Shown: one piece after another, positions 30,611 through 40,012 of the stretch
Numbering within the stretch: the stretch's first letter is position 1
How the letters are laid out: the number at the start of each line of letters is the position of its first letter
Source: Knoellia sinensis KCTC 19936
GTDB lineage: Bacteria; Actinomycetota; Actinomycetes; Actinomycetales; Dermatophilaceae
Assembly (NCBI RefSeq): GCF_000768705.1
Contig: NZ_AVPJ01000010.1
Location: forward strand, 62,001-126,000
Direction of reading: 5' to 3'
Length of the DNA stretch: 64,000 nt
Position numbers and translations under genes: made by a program
Notes under the pieces: model-generated
Databases searched by the model: none
Seen by the model: the letters and a program-made list of their open reading frames with translations, nothing else
What the model was told of the DNA's origin: nothing

Positions 30611-31108
30611 CTACTTGGGCGACTTCGTGGGGCGGTTCTTCCCCGGCGGGACAGACGGCTTTCCCTTCGTCTGTGACCGTGGGGTCGCCGTGGGCGATTC
30701 GCTCGGTGTCGCCGTCGTGGCGATGGGGCTGGCCGTGGCCGTGGTCGTCGGCGTCGTGGTTGCCGGGGCCGACGCCACCGTCTGCTTCGTCCCGCCGGTC
30801 GTCGCGTTCGTGCGTTCTCCGGTGGACGTGGCACTCACCGATGGTGACGTGCCGATCGTGCTCGACGGGGACGGCGACTCAGCCTCCTCGACCGATGACA
30901 GGTCAGGGATCACCGCACTGGGAGAACCGGCTCCCCCGCCTCCGCGCGTCGCGCCCTGGGCGTCGTCGCTCGCACTCCCCAGCGCGAGAGCACCCGCCAG
31001 GACAAGGCACAGCCCCGACGCGGCCAGCAGCATCCACGTGCGCGTGGGGCTGATGCCGGTCGAGTGGCGCGGTGCATCGCGCTGCGGTGGTGCCTCGTCG
31101 TGGGTCAT
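30611..31108 (-). CDS. Membrane-anchored Ser/Thr/Pro-rich protein
   Basis: A 165-aa protein with a polar cytoplasmic start and one hydrophobic segment (WMLLAASGLCLVLAGALALG, residues ~25-44). A long low-complexity Ser/Thr/Pro/Ala region ends in a basic tail (PPGKNRPTKSPK). The composition suggests an extracellular, possibly glycosylated wall-spanning stalk. No domain is recognised. A TAGCGT box 9 nt upstream may be its promoter. It is divergent from cydA. Confidence 0.6.
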   Translation of the reverse strand: MTHDEAPPQRDAPRHSTGISPTRTWMLLAASGLCLVLAGALALGSASDDAQGATRGGGGAGSPSAVIPDLSSVEEAESPSPSSTIGTSPSVSATSTGERTNATTGGTKQTVASAPATTTPTTTATASPIATTATPSESPTATPRSQTKGKPSVPPGKNRPTKSPK

Positions 31109-31182
31109 AGGGGCGCCACGCTACGGCCCCGAGCGGTGTCCCGACACGTCGGCACCCCGCGACCGTCGTTCCCGGGGCGACG

Positions 31183-31223
31183 TTCGACTACTACACATCG
31201 TCGTACTACTATCGAGAGTAGTA
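31183..31223. promoter_or_regulatory. cydA promoter with probable BlaI-type operator
   Basis: A -35-like TTCGAC (31183-31188) and a -10 TACTAT (31207-31212) are 18 nt apart. Overlapping the -10 is the perfect inverted repeat TACTACT (31204-31210)-ATCGAG-AGTAGTA (31217-31223); another TACTAC half-site lies at 31189-31194. TACTA/TAGTA half-sites resemble those bound by BlaI-type repressors in mycobacteria. A BlaI homologue is encoded at 37124 in the same operon, so autorepression is likely. Confidence 0.65.
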
Positions 31224-31306
31224 GAACGACGGCAGCGCGGGAGCGAGGTCGGCAGCAGTCCCAGCAGCGCTGGGGCCCGAAATCAGGGAACGACCCCAGG
31301 AGCGCC

Positions 31307-32776
31307 ATGGAGCCCGTCGACCTCGCCAGGTGGCAGTTCGCCATCACCACCGTCTACCACTTCCTCTTCGTGCCGATCACGATCGGCCTGTCGCTCGTCG
31401 TGGCGGCGATGCACACGGCTTGGGTGCGGACGAGGCGCCCGGAGTGGCTGCGCCTGGCCAAGTTCTTCGGCAAGCTCTTCACGATCAACTTCGCCCTCGG
31501 GCTCGTGACCGGCATCGTCCAGGAGTTCCAGTTCGGGATGAACTGGTCGGACTACTCGCGATTCGTCGGCGACATCTTCGGGGCGCCACTGGCACTGGAG
31601 GCGCTCCTCGCGTTCTTCGTCGAGTCGACGTTCCTCGGGCTGTGGATCTTCGGCTGGGGCCGGATCCCGGAGAAGCTGCACGCGGCAACGATGTGGGTGG
31701 TCCACGTCGGCACCCTGCTCTCGGCCTACTTCATCCTCGCGGCGAACTCGTTCATGCAGAACCCGGTCGGCTTCCGCTACAACCCCGACAGCGGTCGCGC
31801 CGAGATGGCCGACTTCGGCGCCATCCTCACCAACAAGGTGCAGCTCGTCGCCTTCCCCCACGTCATCACCTCGGCCTACATGGTCGGCGGCGCCGTCGTC
31901 ATGGGCGTCGGTCTGTGGCTGTGGCGACGCGCAGCAGCCCCGGGCGCACCCGACGCCGACGACGTGCCGCTCTATCGCAAGGCGACGCGCATCGGCGCCG
32001 TGCTCACCCTCGTGTCCAGCCTCGGCGTCGTCGCCAGCGGTGACATCCAGGGCAAGATCATGACCGAGGTCCAGCCGATGAAGATGGCGGCGGCCGAGGC
32101 GCTCTACGAGAACGAAGCCGGGGCCGCCTTCTCGATCCTGACGATCGGCTCCCTCGACGGCACCGAAGAGGTCTTCGCCATCAAGGTGCCCAAGGTGCTG
32201 GCCTTCATGGCTACGGGCGACCCGAACGGCGTGGTCGAGGGGATCAATCCGATCAAGGCCCGGAACGCCGAGATGATCGCCGAGATCGAGCGCACCTACG
32301 GAGCCGACGTCGCCCGGATCAGCGCCGACGCCGACTACACCCCCAACGTCCCCCTCGCCTACTGGACCTTCCGGCTCATGATGGGCGTCGGGTTCGCCTC
32401 CATGGCCCTGTCGGCGTTCCTGCTCTGGGTGACCCGGGGGTCGACCCGGCCCCCAGTCTCGCGCTGGTGGCTCTGGGCAGCGATCGCGGCGCCACTCCTC
32501 CCCCTGGCGGGCAACAGCTTCGGCTGGATCTTCACCGAGACCGGTCGCCAGCCGTGGGTCGTCAACGGACTCATGACGACGGCCTTCGGCGTCTCACCCT
32601 CCGTGTCGGCGACCGAAGTCCTCATCTCGATGTCCGTCTTCACCCTTCTGTATGCCGTGCTCGCCGTTGTCGAGGTACGTCTCTTCCTCCGCTACGTCGC
32701 CCAGGGCGCCGAGCCCTTCCACGAACCGGAGCAGGTGTCGGAGGCCGCCGACACCCCGCTCCAGTTCTCCTACTGA
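31307..32776 (+). CDS. cydA: Cytochrome bd ubiquinol/menaquinol oxidase subunit I
   Basis: A 489-aa, about nine-helix membrane protein that oxidises quinol and holds haems b558, b595 and d. The N-terminal haem-ligand His lies in TTVYHFLFVPITIGL. The b558 ligands correspond to the His in VAFPHVITSAYMVGG and the Met in RLMMGVGFASM. The family signature GWIFTETGRQPWVVNG is intact. Length is near that of actinobacterial CydA with a short Q-loop. An AGGAG site precedes the ATG at 31307. It heads cydA-cydB-cydD-cydC-repressor-protease. Confidence 0.95.
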   Translation: MEPVDLARWQFAITTVYHFLFVPITIGLSLVVAAMHTAWVRTRRPEWLRLAKFFGKLFTINFALGLVTGIVQEFQFGMNWSDYSRFVGDIFGAPLALEALLAFFVESTFLGLWIFGWGRIPEKLHAATMWVVHVGTLLSAYFILAANSFMQNPVGFRYNPDSGRAEMADFGAILTNKVQLVAFPHVITSAYMVGGAVVMGVGLWLWRRAAAPGAPDADDVPLYRKATRIGAVLTLVSSLGVVASGDIQGKIMTEVQPMKMAAAEALYENEAGAAFSILTIGSLDGTEEVFAIKVPKVLAFMATGDPNGVVEGINPIKARNAEMIAEIERTYGADVARISADADYTPNVPLAYWTFRLMMGVGFASMALSAFLLWVTRGSTRPPVSRWWLWAAIAAPLLPLAGNSFGWIFTETGRQPWVVNGLMTTAFGVSPSVSATEVLISMSVFTLLYAVLAVVEVRLFLRYVAQGAEPFHEPEQVSEAADTPLQFSY

Positions 32777-32828
32777 TTCCTGACTTCCACCTGACCTTCG
32801 AAACCGCTGCAAGAGAGGCGCGTTCGTC

Positions 32829-33872
32829 ATGGACTACCCATTCATCTGGTTCATCCTCATCGGGGTGCTGTGGACCGGCTACCTGGTCCTCGAGGGGTTC
32901 GACTTCGGCGTCGGCGCCCTGTTGCCCGTGCTCGGAGGCCGGGGTGCCCGCGTTGGCGCTGCGGTCGATGAGGCCGACAAGCGGCGACGGGTCATGCTCA
33001 CAGCCATCGGCCCTCACTGGGACGGCAATGAGGTGTGGCTGCTCACGGTCGGCGGCGCGATGTTCGCGGCCTTCCCCCACTGGTACGCCTCGATGTTCTC
33101 GGCCTTCTACCTGCCATTGCTGCTGCTCCTCGTCGCACTCATCGTGCGCAACATGGGCCTCGAATACCGCCACAAGCGGGATGACGACACGTGGCGTCAG
33201 CGGTGGGACCTGGCCATCGTCGGCGGGTCGGTCCTCGCGCCGTTCCTCGTCGGTGTGGCCCTGACGAATCTCGTGCGCGGCGTCCCCCTGGACGCTGACT
33301 TCGAGTACGTCGGATCACTGTGGACCCTCCTCAACCTCCCGAGCCTGCTGGGCGGCCTGACCTTCGTCGCCCTGTCGGTGACGCATGGCGCCCTCTTCCT
33401 CACCCTCAAGACCGACGGTCCGATCCGAGAGGATGCGCGGCGGGTGGCTGAAAGGGCGGGGATCGTGGCCGCCGTTCTCGCCGTGGCACTCATGGCCTGG
33501 GTCGTGACCACTCGTGGCAGCGCGCCCGTGGTCGCCCTCGCCGCGATCGCGGCGGTCGCGCTGGTCGGCGCCCTCGCTGCCAATCGCAGCGGGCGAGAAG
33601 GCCTGGCCTTCGCCGGCACGGCCCTCACCTGGGCCGCGGTAGCAGCGTCCTACTTCGTCGCACTCCACCCGGCGGTGATGCCGACGACGCTTGCCGACGG
33701 CGCCTCCCTCACCATCGAGAACGCGGCCAGCACACCGATGACGCTCGAGATCATGAGCATCGCCGCCCTCATCTTCGTCCCGATCGTCCTCCTCTACACC
33801 GCCTGGACCTACTGGATCTTCCGGCGTCGCCTGACGACCGACCACCTGGCCGCACCGATCCTCGTGAAGTGA
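32829..33872 (+). CDS. cydB: Cytochrome bd oxidase subunit II
   Basis: A 347-aa membrane protein with eight to nine helices. It starts with the family signature FILIGVLWTGYLVLEGFDFG and includes GPHWDGNEVWLLTVGGAMFA, both conserved in CydB. It forms the structural partner of CydA. It lies 52 nt after cydA and 16 nt before cydD, so the four genes are one transcript. Confidence 0.95.
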   Translation: MDYPFIWFILIGVLWTGYLVLEGFDFGVGALLPVLGGRGARVGAAVDEADKRRRVMLTAIGPHWDGNEVWLLTVGGAMFAAFPHWYASMFSAFYLPLLLLLVALIVRNMGLEYRHKRDDDTWRQRWDLAIVGGSVLAPFLVGVALTNLVRGVPLDADFEYVGSLWTLLNLPSLLGGLTFVALSVTHGALFLTLKTDGPIREDARRVAERAGIVAAVLAVALMAWVVTTRGSAPVVALAAIAAVALVGALAANRSGREGLAFAGTALTWAAVAASYFVALHPAVMPTTLADGASLTIENAASTPMTLEIMSIAALIFVPIVLLYTAWTYWIFRRRLTTDHLAAPILVK

Positions 33873-33888
33873 GCGGACGGCATACGAG

Positions 33889-35511
33889 ATGAAGCCTTTT
33901 GACCCAGGACTGCTCCGGGAGGTGCCCGCCATCCGGCGGCCGATCGCACTGCTCGCGGTGGTTGCCGCCGCACAGGGCGCGGCGGCGATCGGGTTGGCGT
34001 TCGCTCTCGCGGGTCTGGTGACCGATGTTGTCGCGCAGCGGGATTGGCAGACGTCAGCAGCATGGGCCGCGGCGGCGTTCCTCGTCCGGGCCGGGCTCGG
34101 GATGCTCGTCGACCGCGTGGGTGCGACCGCCGGGACGTCGGTGAGCTCGGCGCTCCGACGGCGTGTGCTGGCGCGCTGGGTCGCCGCCCCGTCCGAGGCA
34201 CGACCGGCTCCGGAGCGGGCGAGAACCCTGGCGGTTCAGGGAGCCGAAGCGGTGGAGCCGTATGCCGCCCGCTTCCTCCCAGCGCTCGTCGCCGGAGCCG
34301 TCGTGCCGGTATTGGCGGTGGGCGCACTGTTCGTCGTCGACCCGCTCAGCGCGCTCATCGTCGTCGTGACCCTGCCGCTGCTCCCGCTCTTCGCCGCCCT
34401 CATCGGGCGGACGACGGAGGACGACACGATGAGCCGTTGGCGCGCCCTCGAACAGCTCGCCGGGCACTTCGGTGACGTCATGCGCGGGCTGCCGACCCTC
34501 GTGGCCTTCGGGCGGGCACGACGCCAGGTCGACGTCGTGCGCGCGGTGTCGGAGCAGCACCGGGCGGCGACGATGCGGACGCTGCGCCTCGCGTTCCTGT
34601 CATCGGCGGCGCTCGAGCTGCTCGCGACGATCTCGGTCGCCATCGTCGCTGTCACCGTGGGGCTGCGGCTGACCCACGGCTCGGTGACGCTGCACGTCGG
34701 GCTGCTCGCCATTCTCCTTTCGCCAGAGGCCTACTGGCCGATCCGGCGGGTCGGGGCCGAGTTCCACGCTGCCGCTGACGGCGTCACCGCCATCGACTCC
34801 ATCCTCGCCGAACTGAACCCCCCGACTGATTGCCCGGCGCTGCACGCCGAACGCAGCGAGGATGTGCAGCGCCGGGCAATCAGTCGGGTTGTCGTGGAGG
34901 GAGTCACGTACTCGTATCCGGGGGCGAGGGTCCGGGTGCTCGACGGCGTGACCCTGACCGCGGGGCGCGGGCTCACCGTCATCACCGGACCGTCGGGGGC
35001 CGGCAAGTCGACCCTGCTCGACCTCGTCGCCGGCCTGCGGACCCCCACGAACGGCACCGTCGAGACGGAGCGGACGCACTACGTGACACAGCGACCGTTC
35101 CTCCCCGATGGGACGATCGCCGACGCCGTCCTGCTCGGTTCCCCGGCTGGCACCACGCCCGCTGACGCGTGGGTGGCCCTGCGGCGAGTGGGGTTGGCCG
35201 GATTCGTCGCCGGACTCCCCGAAGGACTCGACACCCGCATCGGCGACGACGGGTTCGGGCTGTCCGCGGGGCAGCGGACCCGTCTCGCCCTCGCCCGCGC
35301 CCTCCTCAGCGATGCACCCGTCCTGCTGCTCGACGAGCCGACTGCCCACCTCGACACCGACGCCACCGCCACCGTGCTGGGCATCATCCGCGAGCTCGCC
35401 CTCGTCCGTGGCGTCGTCGCCGTCACCCACTCGGCGGAACTCGTCGCGCTGGCCGACGAGCACGTGCACCTCGATTCGCGCCGACGCCTCCCGGAGGTGG
35501 CACCCGCATGA
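33889..35511 (+). CDS. cydD: CydD subunit of the cysteine/glutathione (cytochrome bd assembly) ABC exporter
   Basis: A 540-aa half-transporter: a six-helix membrane domain in residues ~20-300 and an ATPase domain from about 333. Walker A is GPSGAGKST, the signature LSAGQRTRLALARALL, and Walker B VLLLDEPTAHLD. With CydC it exports thiols or haem-related compounds needed to assemble cytochrome bd. Between the membrane and ATPase domains lies a 68-nt palindrome (34821-34888) read through in frame as about 22 extra residues (PTDCPALHAERSEDVQRRAI). The rest of the protein is normal, so it is probably functional. The stop overlaps the cydC start. Confidence 0.93.
   Translation: MKPFDPGLLREVPAIRRPIALLAVVAAAQGAAAIGLAFALAGLVTDVVAQRDWQTSAAWAAAAFLVRAGLGMLVDRVGATAGTSVSSALRRRVLARWVAAPSEARPAPERARTLAVQGAEAVEPYAARFLPALVAGAVVPVLAVGALFVVDPLSALIVVVTLPLLPLFAALIGRTTEDDTMSRWRALEQLAGHFGDVMRGLPTLVAFGRARRQVDVVRAVSEQHRAATMRTLRLAFLSSAALELLATISVAIVAVTVGLRLTHGSVTLHVGLLAILLSPEAYWPIRRVGAEFHAAADGVTAIDSILAELNPPTDCPALHAERSEDVQRRAISRVVVEGVTYSYPGARVRVLDGVTLTAGRGLTVITGPSGAGKSTLLDLVAGLRTPTNGTVETERTHYVTQRPFLPDGTIADAVLLGSPAGTTPADAWVALRRVGLAGFVAGLPEGLDTRIGDDGFGLSAGQRTRLALARALLSDAPVLLLDEPTAHLDTDATATVLGIIRELALVRGVVAVTHSAELVALADEHVHLDSRRRLPEVAPA
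34821..34888. repeat. In-frame palindromic element inside cydD
   Basis: Two exact 25-nt complementary arms (34821-34845 and 34864-34888) flank an 18-nt loop, GCCGAACGCAGCGAGGAT. The outer arm CCGACTGATTGCCCG matches 14 of 15 positions of the arm of the intergenic hairpin at 54833-54899. Both loops carry CGCAGCGA. Confidence 0.8.
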
Positions 35512-37127
35512 GCACGAGCACGACCACGAGCCGCCGGGCACCGCTCGACCTGCTCTCCGGAGTCTGGGGCGGCCTCGCCCTCACCTCCGGCGTGGCCCTC
35601 ACCGCGACCTCGGGCTGGCTCATCGTCCGCGCCTCGGAGCGGCCGGTGATCCTCACCCTCCTCACCGCAATCGTCTCGGTCCGCGCCTTCGGGATGGCCC
35701 GGCCGTTCTTCCGGTACCTGGAGCGGGTCCGTTCGCACGACTCGGCGCTCGCCGGGCTCGCCGGGGCTCGAACCGACGTGTATGCCGCCCTCATCCCCCT
35801 CACGCCGGCTCGCCTGGGCCGTCGGTCACGCAGTGCGGTGTTGTCCGGGGTCGTGGACGACCTCACCGATGTCGTCGAGGCCCACGTCCGCGTGCGGGTG
35901 CCGTTGTGGTCCGCGGCCCTCGCGGCGACGTTCACCACCATCCTCACTGCGGCCCTCGTTCCCACCGCCGGGGTCGTCGTCCTCAGCTGGGTCGCGGCCG
36001 TTGGTGCGGTCACCGCCCTGGGCCTGCACCTCGAGCGCGCCTCTCAGCCGGTCCTGGGCGCGGCCCGCGCCGAGGTGAGCCGGGTCGCGGAGCTGGTCGG
36101 ACGGCATACGGGCGAACTGCAGGCGATCGGCGCGGAAGGCGAGGTTCTCGACCAGCTCGACCGGGCACAGGTCAGCCTCGACCGGGCACTGCGCCGACAA
36201 TGTCGGGGGCGAGCACTGGTCACCGGCGGTGTCCTCACCCTCACGGGGCTCGCGACGCTCGCCATGGCCCGGGTTGCCGTCGAAGCGGACATCTCTGCGG
36301 GGGTCGCCGCCCTGCTCGTCGTCGTGCCCGCTGCCCTGGCCGATGCCCTGCTGCCGCTGGCCGATGCGGTCCGCGCCCGCGCTCGGGCGGAGCAGAGCGG
36401 AGATCGGGTCACGGCCCTCCTCGACCAGGCTCCGGCTGTCGCCGGCGCGGGGACGATTCCCCCCACGTCCACGGCGCCGCACCTGCGACTCGACGCAGTC
36501 GGTGCCGGTTGGGTCGACGGCCGCCTCGACGTCGGACCGGTGACCCTCGACCTGCCGCCGGGGCAGCGCACGGCCATCGTCGGGGCCAACGGTTCCGGCA
36601 AGTCGACCCTCCTCGCGGTGCTCGCCCGGGCTCTCGATCCGCGGTCGGGCCGATATCTCGTGGACGGTCATGACGTGCTCGACCTCGCCCTCGACGACGT
36701 CCGCGACCTCATCGCCGTCGTGGACGACGAGCCACACATCTTTGCGGCTGACCTGCGCGCCAATCTCGTTCTCGCACACCCGAAGGCGAGCGACGAGGAC
36801 ATCGTGGACGCGCTCCGGGTGGCAGGGCTCACCGAGTGGTTCGCTGCGCTGCCGGACGGTCTGGGCACGCGGCTCGGCACGGGCGGACGCGGAGTCTCCG
36901 GCGGCGAGCGGGCACGGCTCGCCCTGGCCCGTGCGGTGCTGTCGCGCCGGCCGGTCGTCCTCCTCGACGAGCCGGTGGCGCACCTCGACCACCCCACGGC
37001 CGCGGGCGTGATGCGTGACGTCTGGGCGGCCACTTCGGGGCGTACCGTGGTCCTCGTCAGCCACCGTCACGAAGGCCTCGACGACGTCGACGTCGTCGTC
37101 GACCTGAGTCCCGGAACCAAGGAATGA
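35508..37127 (+). CDS. cydC: CydC subunit of the cytochrome bd assembly ABC exporter
   Basis: A 539-aa half-transporter with an N-terminal membrane domain (about six helices, starting LLSGVWGGLALTSGVALTAT) and a C-terminal ATPase. Walker A is GANGSGKST near residue 360, the signature VSGGERARLALARAVL, and Walker B VVLLDEPVAHLD. It pairs with CydD. The ATG overlaps the cydD stop (ATGA), and its own stop overlaps the next gene in the same way, so the coupling runs on into the repressor gene. Confidence 0.94.
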   Translation: MSTSTTTSRRAPLDLLSGVWGGLALTSGVALTATSGWLIVRASERPVILTLLTAIVSVRAFGMARPFFRYLERVRSHDSALAGLAGARTDVYAALIPLTPARLGRRSRSAVLSGVVDDLTDVVEAHVRVRVPLWSAALAATFTTILTAALVPTAGVVVLSWVAAVGAVTALGLHLERASQPVLGAARAEVSRVAELVGRHTGELQAIGAEGEVLDQLDRAQVSLDRALRRQCRGRALVTGGVLTLTGLATLAMARVAVEADISAGVAALLVVVPAALADALLPLADAVRARARAEQSGDRVTALLDQAPAVAGAGTIPPTSTAPHLRLDAVGAGWVDGRLDVGPVTLDLPPGQRTAIVGANGSGKSTLLAVLARALDPRSGRYLVDGHDVLDLALDDVRDLIAVVDDEPHIFAADLRANLVLAHPKASDEDIVDALRVAGLTEWFAALPDGLGTRLGTGGRGVSGGERARLALARAVLSRRPVVLLDEPVAHLDHPTAAGVMRDVWAATSGRTVVLVSHRHEGLDDVDVVVDLSPGTKE

Positions 37128-37525
37128 ACGTGCCCCCACCCCCCTCCGCTCCACGACTCGGCGACCTCGAGCGCGCCGTGATGGAGCTGCTGTGGAGCGG
37201 AGCGGCCGACCGGCCGCAGGGCGCGAGCGTCCGTGAGGTCCTCGAAGGGCTGCCAGCCGACCGCGACCTGGCCTACACGACCGTCATGACCGTCCTCGAC
37301 CGCCTCGCCAAGAAGGGTCTCGTGACGCGCGAGCGCGACGGCAGGGCCTGGCGCTACACCCCCGCGGGCACACGCGAGTCGCTCACGGCCGAGACGATGC
37401 GGGCCTCGCTCGGTGACGCCACGGATCGTCGCACCGCTCTGCTGCACTTCCTCGACGGCGCCACCCCCGAGGAGCTCGACGACCTGCGCGCGGCGCTGTC
37501 CGAGGTCGAGCAGCGCCGCGGCTGA
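37124..37525 (+). CDS. BlaI/MecI/CopY-type transcriptional repressor
   Basis: A 133-aa winged-helix protein. The N-terminal LGDLERAVMELLWSG and the recognition helix region DLAYTTVMTVLDRLAKKGLV are characteristic of BlaI/MecI. The C-terminal part forms the dimerisation helices. BlaI proteins bind TACTA/TAGTA-like half-sites and are inactivated through a membrane protease, here probably the product of the next gene. Co-translation with cydC and the operator-like repeat at cydA point to control of the oxidase operon rather than a beta-lactamase, for which no gene is nearby. Confidence 0.9.
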   Translation: MNVPPPPSAPRLGDLERAVMELLWSGAADRPQGASVREVLEGLPADRDLAYTTVMTVLDRLAKKGLVTRERDGRAWRYTPAGTRESLTAETMRASLGDATDRRTALLHFLDGATPEELDDLRAALSEVEQRRG

Positions 37526-37533
37526 CGACGCGC

Positions 37534-38382
37534 ATGTTTGCCGTCCTGCTGGCTCTCCTTGCCCTCCTCCTCGCGGGGGTCGCACCACGGTTGATGGCGC
37601 GACTGGTGTGGTTCCGCAGGGCACCCCGGCCCGCCCTCGTCGCGTGGCAGGCCGTGTCCCTCGCGGCGGTCATCGCCGCCCTCGCTGCGGCACCCGCAGC
37701 CGTCCCGTACCTGCGTGAGCGGGGGTGGCTCGTGTTCGGGATGGCGGCAGCCGTCACCCTCCTCGTGCTCGGCCGACTCCTCCTCTCCGGCCACCGGGTC
37801 GGCACCGGCCTGCGTGCAGCCAGGGCCCGCCACCGCGAACTCGTGGACATCCTGGCCGCGCCCGACGACGGTGGGCGGGCGGACGGCATACGGGTGCTTG
37901 CTCACGCGACGCCGACGGCCTACTGCCTGCCCGGGCGCCGATCGCGCGTCGTGCTCACCCAGGGCGCCCTCGCGGCGCTGCCGGCCGACGAGCTCGACGC
38001 GGTCATCGCTCACGAACGCGCCCACCTGCGTGGTCGGCACGACCTGCTGCTCGAGTACTTCACCGTCCTGCACCACTCCGTGCCTGACCCGGTGCGCTCG
38101 CCCGAGGCGCTGCGCGAGGTTCGCCTGCTCATCGAGGCCCTCGCCGACCGTGCCGCGATCCGCACCTCCGGACCGGTGACGACGGCACGGGCGCTCATGA
38201 CCCTGGCGCGCGGACAGGCACCGGAGGCGAGCCTCGCCGCCGCAGGCGACGGAACCACGGCCGCCCGGATGCGCCTGCTCGCCTCCGAGCCGGTCTCACC
38301 TCTCGTGTCTGCGGTGATGTACCTGTATGCCGGCGCCGTCGTCGCCCTGCCACTCACCTTGCTGTGGCTTTCCTGGCGCTGA
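37534..38382 (+). CDS. M56-family (BlaR1-like) membrane metalloprotease
   Basis: A 282-aa membrane protein with hydrophobic segments near residues 1-20, 36-58, 66-84 and at the C-terminus (257-277). The zinc motif is HERAH (His160, Glu161, His164) within VIAHERAHLRGRHDLLLEY, and EALADRAA probably supplies the further ligand. Unlike staphylococcal BlaR1 there is no penicillin-binding sensor domain. It starts 8 nt after the BlaI-type gene and probably cleaves or inactivates that repressor on a membrane signal. Confidence 0.87.
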   Translation: MFAVLLALLALLLAGVAPRLMARLVWFRRAPRPALVAWQAVSLAAVIAALAAAPAAVPYLRERGWLVFGMAAAVTLLVLGRLLLSGHRVGTGLRAARARHRELVDILAAPDDGGRADGIRVLAHATPTAYCLPGRRSRVVLTQGALAALPADELDAVIAHERAHLRGRHDLLLEYFTVLHHSVPDPVRSPEALREVRLLIEALADRAAIRTSGPVTTARALMTLARGQAPEASLAAAGDGTTAARMRLLASEPVSPLVSAVMYLYAGAVVALPLTLLWLSWR

Positions 38383-38401
38383 GCCGCCCCGTCCGCGACA
38401 C

Positions 38402-38460
38402 TTGAACGTGTTCAACTTCGATGCTACTGTCACGCTCATCATCAAGTTGAACGTGTTCAA
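38402..38460 (+). promoter_or_regulatory. Promoter with twin TetR-type operators
   Basis: The sequence TTGAACGTGTTCAA occurs identically at 38402-38415 and 38447-38460. The first copy contains a -35 (TTGAAC); 17 nt later comes a -10, TACTGT (38425-38430). The second lies just before the AGGAG site of the gene at 38473. Two operators around one promoter indicate tight repression, most likely by the TetR protein encoded at 39341. Confidence 0.8.
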
Positions 38461-38472
38461 AGGAGCCTTCTC

Positions 38473-38886
38473 ATGGACCTCGTCGTCGCCACCTACCTCG
38501 CCTACATCGCGCTCGCCGTCCCACTGACGGTGTGGGTCGCGCACACCCTCTCGACCAACGGCCGCCACTTCCTCGTCGACGTCTTCAGCGGCGACAGCGA
38601 GCTGGCCCAAGCGGTCAACCGCCTGCTGGTGGTCGGCTTCTATCTCCTCAACCTCGGCTTCGTCGCGCTCTATCTCCGGGTCAGCGGTCCGGTCGAGTCG
38701 GCGCGAGCCGTCGTCGAGACCCTGAGCGTCAAGCTCGGCGTGGTGCTGCTGGTCCTGGGCGTCGTCCACCTCACCAACGTCTGGGTCTTCAACAGGCTCC
38801 GCCACCGCACCAAGGTGGACGCCTATCGCACGCCGCCCGTCGGGCCCCAGTCCCACACGCCGCCGGCGTTCGCCCCGGTCAGCTGA
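38473..38886 (+). CDS. Small multi-pass membrane protein
   Basis: A 137-aa protein with about three hydrophobic segments (residues ~5-25, 50-70, 84-105) and a proline-rich cytoplasmic tail. The motif FSGDSELAQAVNRLLVVGFY is conserved-looking but I do not recognise a named family. It is the first gene of a unit controlled by two identical TetR-type operators, followed by a thioredoxin-like protein and a TetR regulator. An AGGAG site lies 7 nt before the ATG. Confidence 0.75.
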   Translation: MDLVVATYLAYIALAVPLTVWVAHTLSTNGRHFLVDVFSGDSELAQAVNRLLVVGFYLLNLGFVALYLRVSGPVESARAVVETLSVKLGVVLLVLGVVHLTNVWVFNRLRHRTKVDAYRTPPVGPQSHTPPAFAPVS

Positions 38887-38895
38887 GGCTGCATC

Positions 38896-39297
38896 ATGCA
38901 CCGGCTCTACGTCCTCCACGACCCCACCTGCCCGATCTGTCGCCGGTTCGGCGCATGGCTCGTCGCGCAGCCGGCGCACGTCCCGATCACCCTCATGCCG
39001 GCTGGAGGGCCGGACGCGAGGGCGCACTTCCCGGCGCTCGACCACGCGGCGACGATGCGCGACATCACGGTCGTGAGCGACGTCGGTGACGTCTGGACCA
39101 AGGAGCACGCTTGGGTGGTCGCCCTGTGGGCGACCCGCACCCATCGCGCGACCGCCGAGCGGCTCGCGACCCGCAGTGGTCTCGCGGCCGCCAAGCGCAT
39201 GGCGTATGCCGCGGCTGGGCTCCGCGCGGCCCTCGCCTCACCCTCGCCTCCGCCCGCACCGCTGCCCACGCCCGTGGTGTTAGCGTCGGCGCCATGA
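38896..39297 (+). CDS. Thioredoxin-like protein with a CPIC motif (DCC-like)
   Basis: A 133-aa protein. The N-terminus LYVLHDPTCPICRRFGAWLV has a CxxC redox motif (Cys16/Cys19 region) after a first beta strand, as in thioredoxin-fold DUF393/DCC proteins. The rest is helical and ends in a Pro/Ala-rich tail. It may shuttle thiols for the membrane protein encoded 9 nt upstream. The last ~15 codons contain the promoter of the downstream TetR gene. Confidence 0.75.
   Translation: MHRLYVLHDPTCPICRRFGAWLVAQPAHVPITLMPAGGPDARAHFPALDHAATMRDITVVSDVGDVWTKEHAWVVALWATRTHRATAERLATRSGLAAAKRMAYAAAGLRAALASPSPPPAPLPTPVVLASAP
39281..39286 (+). promoter_or_regulatory. Leaderless-type -10 box inside the 3' end of the thioredoxin-like gene
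   Basis: TAGCGT, followed by 7 nt and an ATG at 39294 that opens a 16-codon frame ending in the TetR start codon. Confidence 0.5.
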
Positions 39298-39344
39298 AGG
39301 CGGCCGCGTTCGACCTCGTCTCCCACCAGATCCAGGTGCCGTGA
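39294..39344 (+). CDS. Possible 16-aa leader peptide coupled to the TetR gene
   Basis: The frame reads MKAAAFDLVSHQIQVP and stops at 39342-39344; the GTG start of the TetR gene (39341) overlaps that stop as GTGA. With the -10 box placed 7 nt before it, it would be translated from a leaderless transcript and hand ribosomes to the TetR start. No similarity to known leader peptides is evident, and it could be fortuitous. Confidence 0.4.
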   Translation: MKAAAFDLVSHQIQVP

Positions 39345-40012
39345 GCGAAGCGGCCAAGTCCGAGCGCGGGGAGCAGAGCCGGCTGGCGATCGCCGCCGCC
39401 GCGCAGGAGCTGTTCCTCGAGCGCGGCTACGACAAGACGACGATGCGGGCAGTCGCCGAGCGTGCGGGGGTATCGCTGGGCAATGCCTACTACTACTTCT
39501 CGTCCAAGGAGCACCTGGTCCAAGCGTTCTATGACGGGATCCAGGCGAGCCACGCCGAGGTGGCCGTGCGACGGCTGGACGGCAGGGTCGCCCTCGGCGA
39601 TCGTCTCGGCGCGGCCCTGATCGCGTGGATCGACGTGGCCGAGCCGTTCCATGAGTTCGCGGCGCAGTTCTTCAAGGTCGCGGCCGACCCCGGCAGCCCC
39701 CTGTCACCATTCAGTCCGGAGTCCGCACCCGCGCGAGATGCCGCCGTCGGGATTCACCGACTCGTTGTCGAGGGGTCGGACGCCAAGGTCACCAAGGACG
39801 TGCGCGCCGCCCTGCCCGAACTGCTGTGGATGCTGCAGATGGGCATCGTGCTGTTTTGGGTCCACGACCAGAGCGAGGGTCAGGCCAGGACTCGCGAGCT
39901 CGTGCAGCGCCTCGTGCCCGTCGTCGACAAGGTCGTCAAGGTCTCCCGCCTCCCCGGCGTCAAGGGAGTCATCACCGACCTCATCGACCTCCTTGACGCC
40001 ATGCGTCCGTGA
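39341..40012 (+). CDS. TetR-family transcriptional regulator
   Basis: A 223-aa regulator. The N-terminal HTH is typical: AIAAAAQELFLERGYDKTTM followed by VSLGNAYYYFSSKEHL. The C-terminal ~160 helical residues form the ligand pocket. It closes a three-gene unit whose promoter holds two identical palindromes (38402-38460), and is therefore the probable repressor of that promoter. The start is a GTG overlapping the stop of a possible leader peptide. Confidence 0.9.
   Translation: MSEAAKSERGEQSRLAIAAAAQELFLERGYDKTTMRAVAERAGVSLGNAYYYFSSKEHLVQAFYDGIQASHAEVAVRRLDGRVALGDRLGAALIAWIDVAEPFHEFAAQFFKVAADPGSPLSPFSPESAPARDAAVGIHRLVVEGSDAKVTKDVRAALPELLWMLQMGIVLFWVHDQSEGQARTRELVQRLVPVVDKVVKVSRLPGVKGVITDLIDLLDAMRP

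Follow-up and report, generated by a model that had tools for sequence, protein, structure and literature searches.

A putative BlaI repressor-protease switch within the cytochrome bd operon of Knoellia sinensis

The window analyzed here, a 64,000-nucleotide stretch of the Knoellia sinensis KCTC 19936 genome (contig NZ_AVPJ01000010.1, positions 62,001 to 126,000), contains the operon for a back-up respiratory oxidase, cytochrome bd (cydABDC), that continues into genes encoding a BlaI-like repressor and a membrane zinc protease. Together with two predicted operators at the cydA promoter, these two genes appear to form a repressor-protease switch dedicated to the oxidase, a reading to which we assign an overall probability of about 0.65. 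A first-pass annotation of this DNA had already tied a BlaI-type repressor to cyd control, and comparisons of gene linkage and operator sequences among relatives strongly support that proposal.

The operon and its predicted operators

The features of the locus are as follows.

31189-31205, + strand: operator 1, TACTACACATCGTCGTA (pattern TACKAY-N5-RTMGTA), conserved in relatives and located between the presumed -35 and -10 elements of cydA
31207-31223, + strand: operator 2, TACTATCGAGAGTAGTA, with its left half TACTAT (31207-31212) inferred to be the -10 element of cydA
31307-32776, + strand: cydA, cytochrome bd subunit I (Pfam PF01654, 534.7 bits, above cut-off)
32829-33872, + strand: cydB, cytochrome bd subunit II (PF02322, 356.2 bits, above cut-off; TIGR00203 also above cut-off)
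33889-35511, + strand: cydD, ABC exporter subunit for bd assembly (TIGR02857, 480.4 bits, above the NCBIfam cut-off)
35508-37127, + strand: cydC, ABC exporter subunit (TIGR02868, 421.8 bits, above the NCBIfam cut-off), with an ATGA overlap with cydD
37124-37525, + strand: blaI-like repressor gene, 133 amino acids (PF03965, 88.7 bits), with an ATGA overlap with cydC
37534-38382, + strand: M48/M56-type membrane zinc protease gene, 282 amino acids, with a HERAH motif and about four transmembrane segments (assigned from Pfam M48, HExxH, and hydrophobic segments)

The CydA and CydB families were matched in Pfam and the CydD and CydC families in NCBIfam, which identifies the first four genes as a cydABDC operon. 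The six-gene order had been described as continuous, with overlapping stop and start codons; the overlaps hold for cydD, cydC, and blaI, but blaI and the protease gene are separated by an 8-bp gap. The repressor matches PF03965 over its full length (residues 12-126; cut-off of 22.6 bits) and is the only PF03965 match in the source genome (3.99 Mb, 61 contigs). Its best match in the PDB is 2g9w (E value of 2.6e-27), a record titled "conserved hypothetical protein," which we take to be BlaI of Mycobacterium tuberculosis.

A palindrome, TACTACT-N6-AGTAGTA, had been noted at the cydA promoter together with an extra TACTAC half-site. The palindrome is real, exact (31204-31223), and far above chance, as the window contains five matches with up to three mismatches versus 0.04 expected, and four of the five overlap one another in the cydA promoter. 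Its 7-N6-7 frame was rejected, since relatives retain a 6-N5-6 arrangement. Comparison of six relatives revealed a 17-bp unit in two tandem copies, and the extra TACTAC sequence, although present, is therefore not a lone half-site but part of a complete second operator. The TACKAY-N5-RTMGTA pattern has two perfect sites in the window versus 0.00 expected (none in 100 shuffles), and a scan of the whole genome (approximately 4 Mb) returned the same number of perfect sites, both at the cydA promoter. When one mismatch was allowed, the genome contained 11 sites compared with 56 for a reversed control pattern, so that one-mismatch sites represent background. The ATP synthase operon was considered as a further target, and no perfect site was found outside the cydA promoter in the source genome. 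The two sites are dyad symmetric, tandem, and conserved at the promoter of the presumed target, they co-occur with blaI, and they are predicted to be BlaI binding sites.

Recurrence of the gene order and operator among relatives

Gene order was surveyed in genome samples from the family (n = 79), order (n = 149), and class (n = 118) of the source organism; the genomes are related to each other, and the linkage counts are lower bounds because the match lists were used without their weakest rows. A scan based on the protease returned nine loci. The six-gene order is retained in the six that include all of cydA and in a seventh that is truncated within this gene; one other, from a metagenome-assembled genome, is a blaI-protease pair without cyd that has TACTACGTGCCGTAGTA upstream of blaI, and one is cut. 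In the family sample, cydA was present in 73 of the 79 genomes and a homolog of the source BlaI in 59, and in 48 of the 79 blaI lies 3.5 to 9 kb downstream of the cydA match on the same strand (the embedded arrangement). One of these 48, G122, has cydA split over contigs and stands outside the set of 47 embedded loci used below, in 45 of which the start of blaI, with start codons chosen by script, is at most 50 bp past the cydC stop or overlaps it. The order sample contained cydA in at least 138 of 149 genomes and PF03965 in 75; at least 44 of the 149, none of them from the source's own family, have blaI beside cydA in a divergent arrangement, with approximately 120 to 350 bp between the BlaI and CydA profile matches. 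The class sample (cydA in 78 genomes, PF03965 in 67) added at least 20 divergent pairs, 4 of them already in the order set, as well as 2 embedded pairs and 1 of another arrangement. A survey of gene order and operator had been set beforehand as a refutation test; it found that both recur in the family, order, and class.

The operator was scored as the best match over 12 positions within 300 bp upstream of cydA. All 47 embedded loci score 11 or 12, some of the promoters carrying one site of at least 11/12 and others carrying two. Among the 44 divergent loci, 24 score 11 or 12, 18 score 10 and represent a second operator type, and 2 have none. Of the 64 loci whose stretch lacks blaI, 6 score 11 or 12, and shuffled sequences reach 11 in approximately 0.2 to 0.6% of cases. 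The second type, TTCTAC-N5-GTAGAA, was found at 18/44 divergent loci and at 1/2 loci of other arrangements, with counts of 0/47 at embedded loci, 0/64 at unlinked loci, and 0/3140 in shuffles. Overall, 91 of 93 blaI-linked loci (including two of other arrangements, L067 and L178) have an operator upstream of cydA, versus 1 of 42 in which BlaI was scored as absent, meaning no match above approximately 43 bits in the order sample or 60 bits in the family sample, with weak matches near the Pfam cut-off dropped (e.g., in G034, G031, G016, and G068); G196 was counted as lacking yet has a 66-bit BlaI match, which makes the latter fraction 1/41. The sole BlaI-lacking locus with an operator, in G187, extends 0.75 kb past the beginning of the cydC match and stops there. 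The Fisher value for linked versus lacking loci, 5e-31, is descriptive only because the genomes are related, and the unlinked order set consists of 34 loci fetched from the 92 cydA loci without a nearby BlaI among the matches listed. Where BlaI is encoded elsewhere in the genome, the operator was found at 5 of 22 cyd loci. At 16 of the 17 further class loci, one or the other operator type is present within the stretch; at L240 the 11-of-12 sites are upstream of blaI, which there precedes a cydA-like gene.

Two further observations concern additional bd oxidases. Genome G121 has a second cydA copy (L193), on a contig other than the blaI-linked one, with an operator of 11/12, so that a single BlaI may serve two bd oxidases there. 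Loci L235, L237, and L238 contain distant cydA paralogs (28 to 31% identical to the window CydA) beside a divergent blaI-protease pair and TTCTAC-type operators, suggesting that the circuit accompanies another bd branch too; the similar locus L236 carries neither operator type.

Residues of BlaI also differ between the two operator groups. Residue 55, presumably located in the recognition helix by homology, is M in 92/93 TACKAC-group rows, whereas all 21 TTCTAC-group rows have L or H there; residue 36 changes from V (92/93) to A (21/21), and residue 62 changes from mostly A to E (20/21), in a comparison where operator class was assigned by locus group, 5 of 119 rows were left out, some genomes are doubled, and the rows are related. 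These changes are what direct recognition of the operator would predict, and shared descent alone could also give rise to them. In a BlaI tree built from few columns and having long branches, the TTCTAC-type divergent loci fall into one supported group of 31 rows, control rows included; the controls were picked automatically, leaving 11 of 21 loci without one and others possibly mis-picked.

Six genomes from two genera of another family, in which blaI and cydA are apart, provided a check that does not depend on linkage. The BlaI of one of them matches 2g9w over its full length. Each genome has 5 to 8 perfect sites, compared with 1 to 6 for the control pattern, and these control sites, together with several sites inside long reading frames, show that a background exists; what counts is recurrence at the same two genes rather than the number of sites. 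In all six, a perfect site precedes blaI and another precedes cydA, the latter starting 48 to 78 bp before the conserved SRWQFG codons. All four genomes of one genus have another site ahead of an ATP-synthase-I-chain gene (three matches at or above the Pfam cut-off and one just below), and the gene that follows looks like atpB in the three genomes read; no site before the ATP-synthase-I-chain gene was found in the remaining two genomes, which belong to the other genus. These positions match the targets of M. tuberculosis BlaI, which is reported to bind the promoters of cytochrome bd and of ATP synthase (PMC5473688, with reference to Sala et al. 2009) and to bind at Rv1303 (PMC12565901). Perfect sites were also seen near the beginnings of reading frames that encode cytochrome c oxidase subunit III, DUF4383 proteins (in two genomes), and DXP reductoisomerase (L247, L267, L270, and L249), which are possible further BlaI targets.

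Among the closest known systems is the M. tuberculosis pair of BlaI (Rv1846c) and BlaR (Rv1845c), in which BlaR likewise has no beta-lactam sensor (PMC5473688). That pair serves several targets, and in the six related genomes just described it is apart from cyd, whereas the window pair is built into the cyd operon and has perfect sites only at cydA. The operator pattern is nevertheless shared: the same operator stands at both cydA and blaI in each of the six genomes, and the window sites precede an operon that itself holds blaI. As BlaI binding at the cyd promoter has already been attributed to M. tuberculosis, the new aspect is smaller and lies in the embedded or divergent blaI-protease-cyd locus and its spread, for which no earlier description was found in listings and passages of open-access papers searched for such linkage outside mycobacteria.

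The protease and the release of repression

The protease had been described as an M56 enzyme without a penicillin-sensing domain. Such a domain is indeed missing, but the family assignment shifted, as the Peptidase_M56 score (20.2 bits) is below the cut-off of 31 whereas the M48 score (34.4 bits) is above the cut-off of 20.3. Among 40 protease sequences scanned, including that of the window, M48 matched all 40 and M56 matched 34 (E value of 0.001 or less). The protein has about four hydrophobic segments (residues 2-20, 34-52, 66-84, and 261-279) and a predicted zinc site, HERAH, at residues 160-164. Neither an extracellular nor a penicillin-binding sensor domain was found in it, and a length of 282 residues with the last transmembrane-like segment at 261-279 leaves no room for an extracellular sensor domain. 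The HExxH motif is present in 111 of 112 rows of a protease alignment in which some genomes are doubled, the exception being a 106-residue fragment. Other conserved features are P31, W38-Q39, R97, A129-Y130-C131 (C131 being 95% conserved), H169, E201, and D205, and any model of what this protein senses must account for the set from P31 to D205.

The gene for the protease follows blaI closely. It is beside blaI in 44/44 divergent order loci and in 17/17 further class loci, and adjoins it in 61 of the 62 nonfamily loci whose stretch includes blaI. Where the arrangement is divergent, blaI stands between the protease gene and cydA, and the protease gene thus tracks blaI rather than cyd. Within the 47 embedded loci the protease gene is adjacent and codirectional in 32, adjacent but inverted in 4, and inverted at a distance of 1 to 2 kb in 2, and one locus ends at a contig edge.

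In the explanation that we favor, each of the tandem 17-bp operators at the cydA promoter would be occupied by a BlaI dimer, and the operon from cydA to the protease gene would stay silent as long as the main oxidase branch is working. When respiration fails, the adjoining four-transmembrane protease would be activated, BlaI would be cut or cleared, and the whole operon would be turned on. Because blaI and the protease gene are at the 3' end of the operon, induction would also make fresh repressor and protease, so that the circuit could reset itself after the signal. Repression of cyd by BlaI through the tandem sites is well supported by the comparison of relatives and very likely to operate. 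Relief of that repression by proteolysis is probable, judging from what is known of the family and from the conservation of the protease gene and its HExxH motif. It is a tentative suggestion, somewhat doubtful as yet, that the circuit responds to a failing respiratory chain or quinol pool rather than to a beta-lactam. A wider proposal, which we regard as rather unlikely, is that the respiratory role of BlaI/M56 is old in the class Actinomycetes, with a protease that senses respiratory failure in the membrane (e.g., a reduced menaquinol pool or an idle oxidase) and destroys BlaI, and with beta-lactamase and ATP synthase genes as targets recruited later.

Residue F109 of BlaI, conserved in 118 of 119 rows and preceded by H in 80 and by R in 34, is in a region that, matched by eye, presumably corresponds to the staphylococcal cleavage site N101-F102; its conservation may instead serve the dimer core. 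In the staphylococcal BlaI/BlaR1 and MecI/MecR1 systems, a winged-helix repressor is cut by a membrane protease, as described for Staphylococcus aureus BlaR1 and BlaI (PMC5473688). BlaR1 differs in having an extracellular beta-lactam-binding domain and in controlling beta-lactamase, and operators of the staphylococcal type differ as well; for the related CopR/CopY family, TACANNTGTA is given as the core (PMC7253601). A classic beta-lactam sensor was considered for the window locus and judged unlikely, as the protease has no sensor domain.

Rex, Crp1, SenX3-RegX3, and ArcBA/Fnr belong to protein families other than BlaI. They regulate cydAB in Streptomyces (Rex), mycobacteria (Crp1 and SenX3-RegX3), and Escherichia coli (ArcBA/Fnr) and are not described, in the available parts of the papers concerned, as being encoded in the operon together with a protease (PMC7739888, PMC5874750). 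In Mycobacterium smegmatis, cyanide raises cydA expression 388-fold, and 30% of this response remains in a crp1 mutant (PMC7739888), which leaves room for a second regulator.

Several observations weigh against the proposed switch. At the promoter, a strict scan for sigma-70 promoters and terminators over 31000-38600 found nothing. Recognizable operators are missing from the linked loci L149 and L153, neither operator type occurs at class locus L236, and 17 of the 22 cyd loci in genomes with BlaI elsewhere have no operator, several of these being second cydA copies or coming from genomes with a less similar BlaI. On the side of the protease, 8 of the 47 embedded loci have no protease gene in the 1.7 to 2.1 kb beyond blaI; 5 of these 8 genomes have a homolog elsewhere and 3 have none at an E value of 0.001 or less. 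The nonfamily locus L178 has blaI without a protease gene in the stretch, and together these cases indicate that the protease is not indispensable. An AlphaFold model of the protease, made with 10 sequences, reached a confidence (pLDDT) of 61.5, too poor for a fold match, and Foldseek returned 12 matches with it, none at an E value of 0.001 or less.

The best mechanistic precedent elsewhere is the PetR/PetP pair of Synechocystis, which combines, like the window pair, a BlaI-type regulator with a BlaR1-type membrane protease, switches an electron-transfer component, and has no beta-lactam role stated in the passages available. It differs in controlling plastocyanin and cytochrome c6 according to copper and in that PetR is both a repressor and an activator. 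Since PetR and PetP, the latter a proposed copper-dependent protease, exchange plastocyanin for cytochrome c6 (PMC7896320, PMC13421787), the cyd protease could likewise follow copper status, with the copper-free bd oxidase replacing a copper-dependent oxidase in times of shortage. Copper deprivation does induce cydABDC in an M. tuberculosis chalkophore mutant, though not in the wild type (PMC12140626). However, PetP is activated by copper, whereas the cyd protease would need to be activated by its loss, and we consider a copper switch unlikely.

The family names BlaI and BlaR1 bring to mind a beta-lactam or cell-envelope stress circuit, in which the protease would sense wall damage as BlaR1 does and cyd would be induced for tolerance; in M. 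tuberculosis, a beta-lactam with clavulanate raises the expression of both blaR-blaI and cydAB (PMC5473688). A protease that has no penicillin-binding or other extracellular domain, and a genome whose sole perfect operators are at cydA, make this improbable. It is similarly improbable that BlaI represses cyd but leaves the operator in some other way, through an effector or a competing activator like Crp, with the protease serving a task such as quality control of the membrane oxidase. The three genomes with an embedded blaI and operator but no detectable protease would fit that arrangement, as would the protease matches to M48 (all 40 sequences scanned) and M56 (34 of them) and the activation of M. 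smegmatis cydA by Crp1 (PMC7739888), but the protease gene is beside blaI in all but one of the nonfamily loci that have blaI in the stretch and, in the divergent ones, tracks blaI rather than cyd. A chance neighborhood without regulatory meaning, for which nothing was found in favor, is excluded in practice by the linkage and operator counts in the family, order, and class samples and was rejected.

Neighboring sequence features and biological significance

Additional features were noted around and within the operon. Upstream of cydA, a divergent open reading frame of 165 amino acids (30611-31108, - strand) has no Pfam or NCBIfam match, and a 36%-identical relative occupies the same position in locus L018. 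The cydD coding sequence contains a perfect 25-bp inverted repeat with an 18-nucleotide loop (34821-34888; predicted RNA fold of -60 kcal/mol), located before the ATPase domain in a segment that is variable among relatives; its 16-base core was found in 1 of 314 fetched loci, L097, which is the source genome itself. Beyond the protease gene, two perfect copies of the palindrome TTGAACGTGTTCAA at 38402-38460 (0 expected by chance) lie upstream of a 137-amino-acid open reading frame without a Pfam or NCBIfam family (38473-38886), which is followed by an open reading frame with a subthreshold DCC1-like match (38896-39297) and by a TetR-type regulator gene (39341-40012). This stretch, directly after the protease gene, is probably an autoregulated TetR operon.

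The cyd-linked locus supplies a defined operator and many natural variants, including an apparent specificity switch from TACKAC to TTCTAC with matching changes in BlaI, and a system with one target in nonpathogenic relatives makes it testable what a BlaR without a sensor domain senses. The wide recurrence of blaI, the protease gene, and cyd together with the DNA switch suggests that the repressor-protease pair is widely used to control respiration in actinobacteria. For a pair named after penicillin resistance, the likely job would thus shift toward respiration in a large bacterial class.

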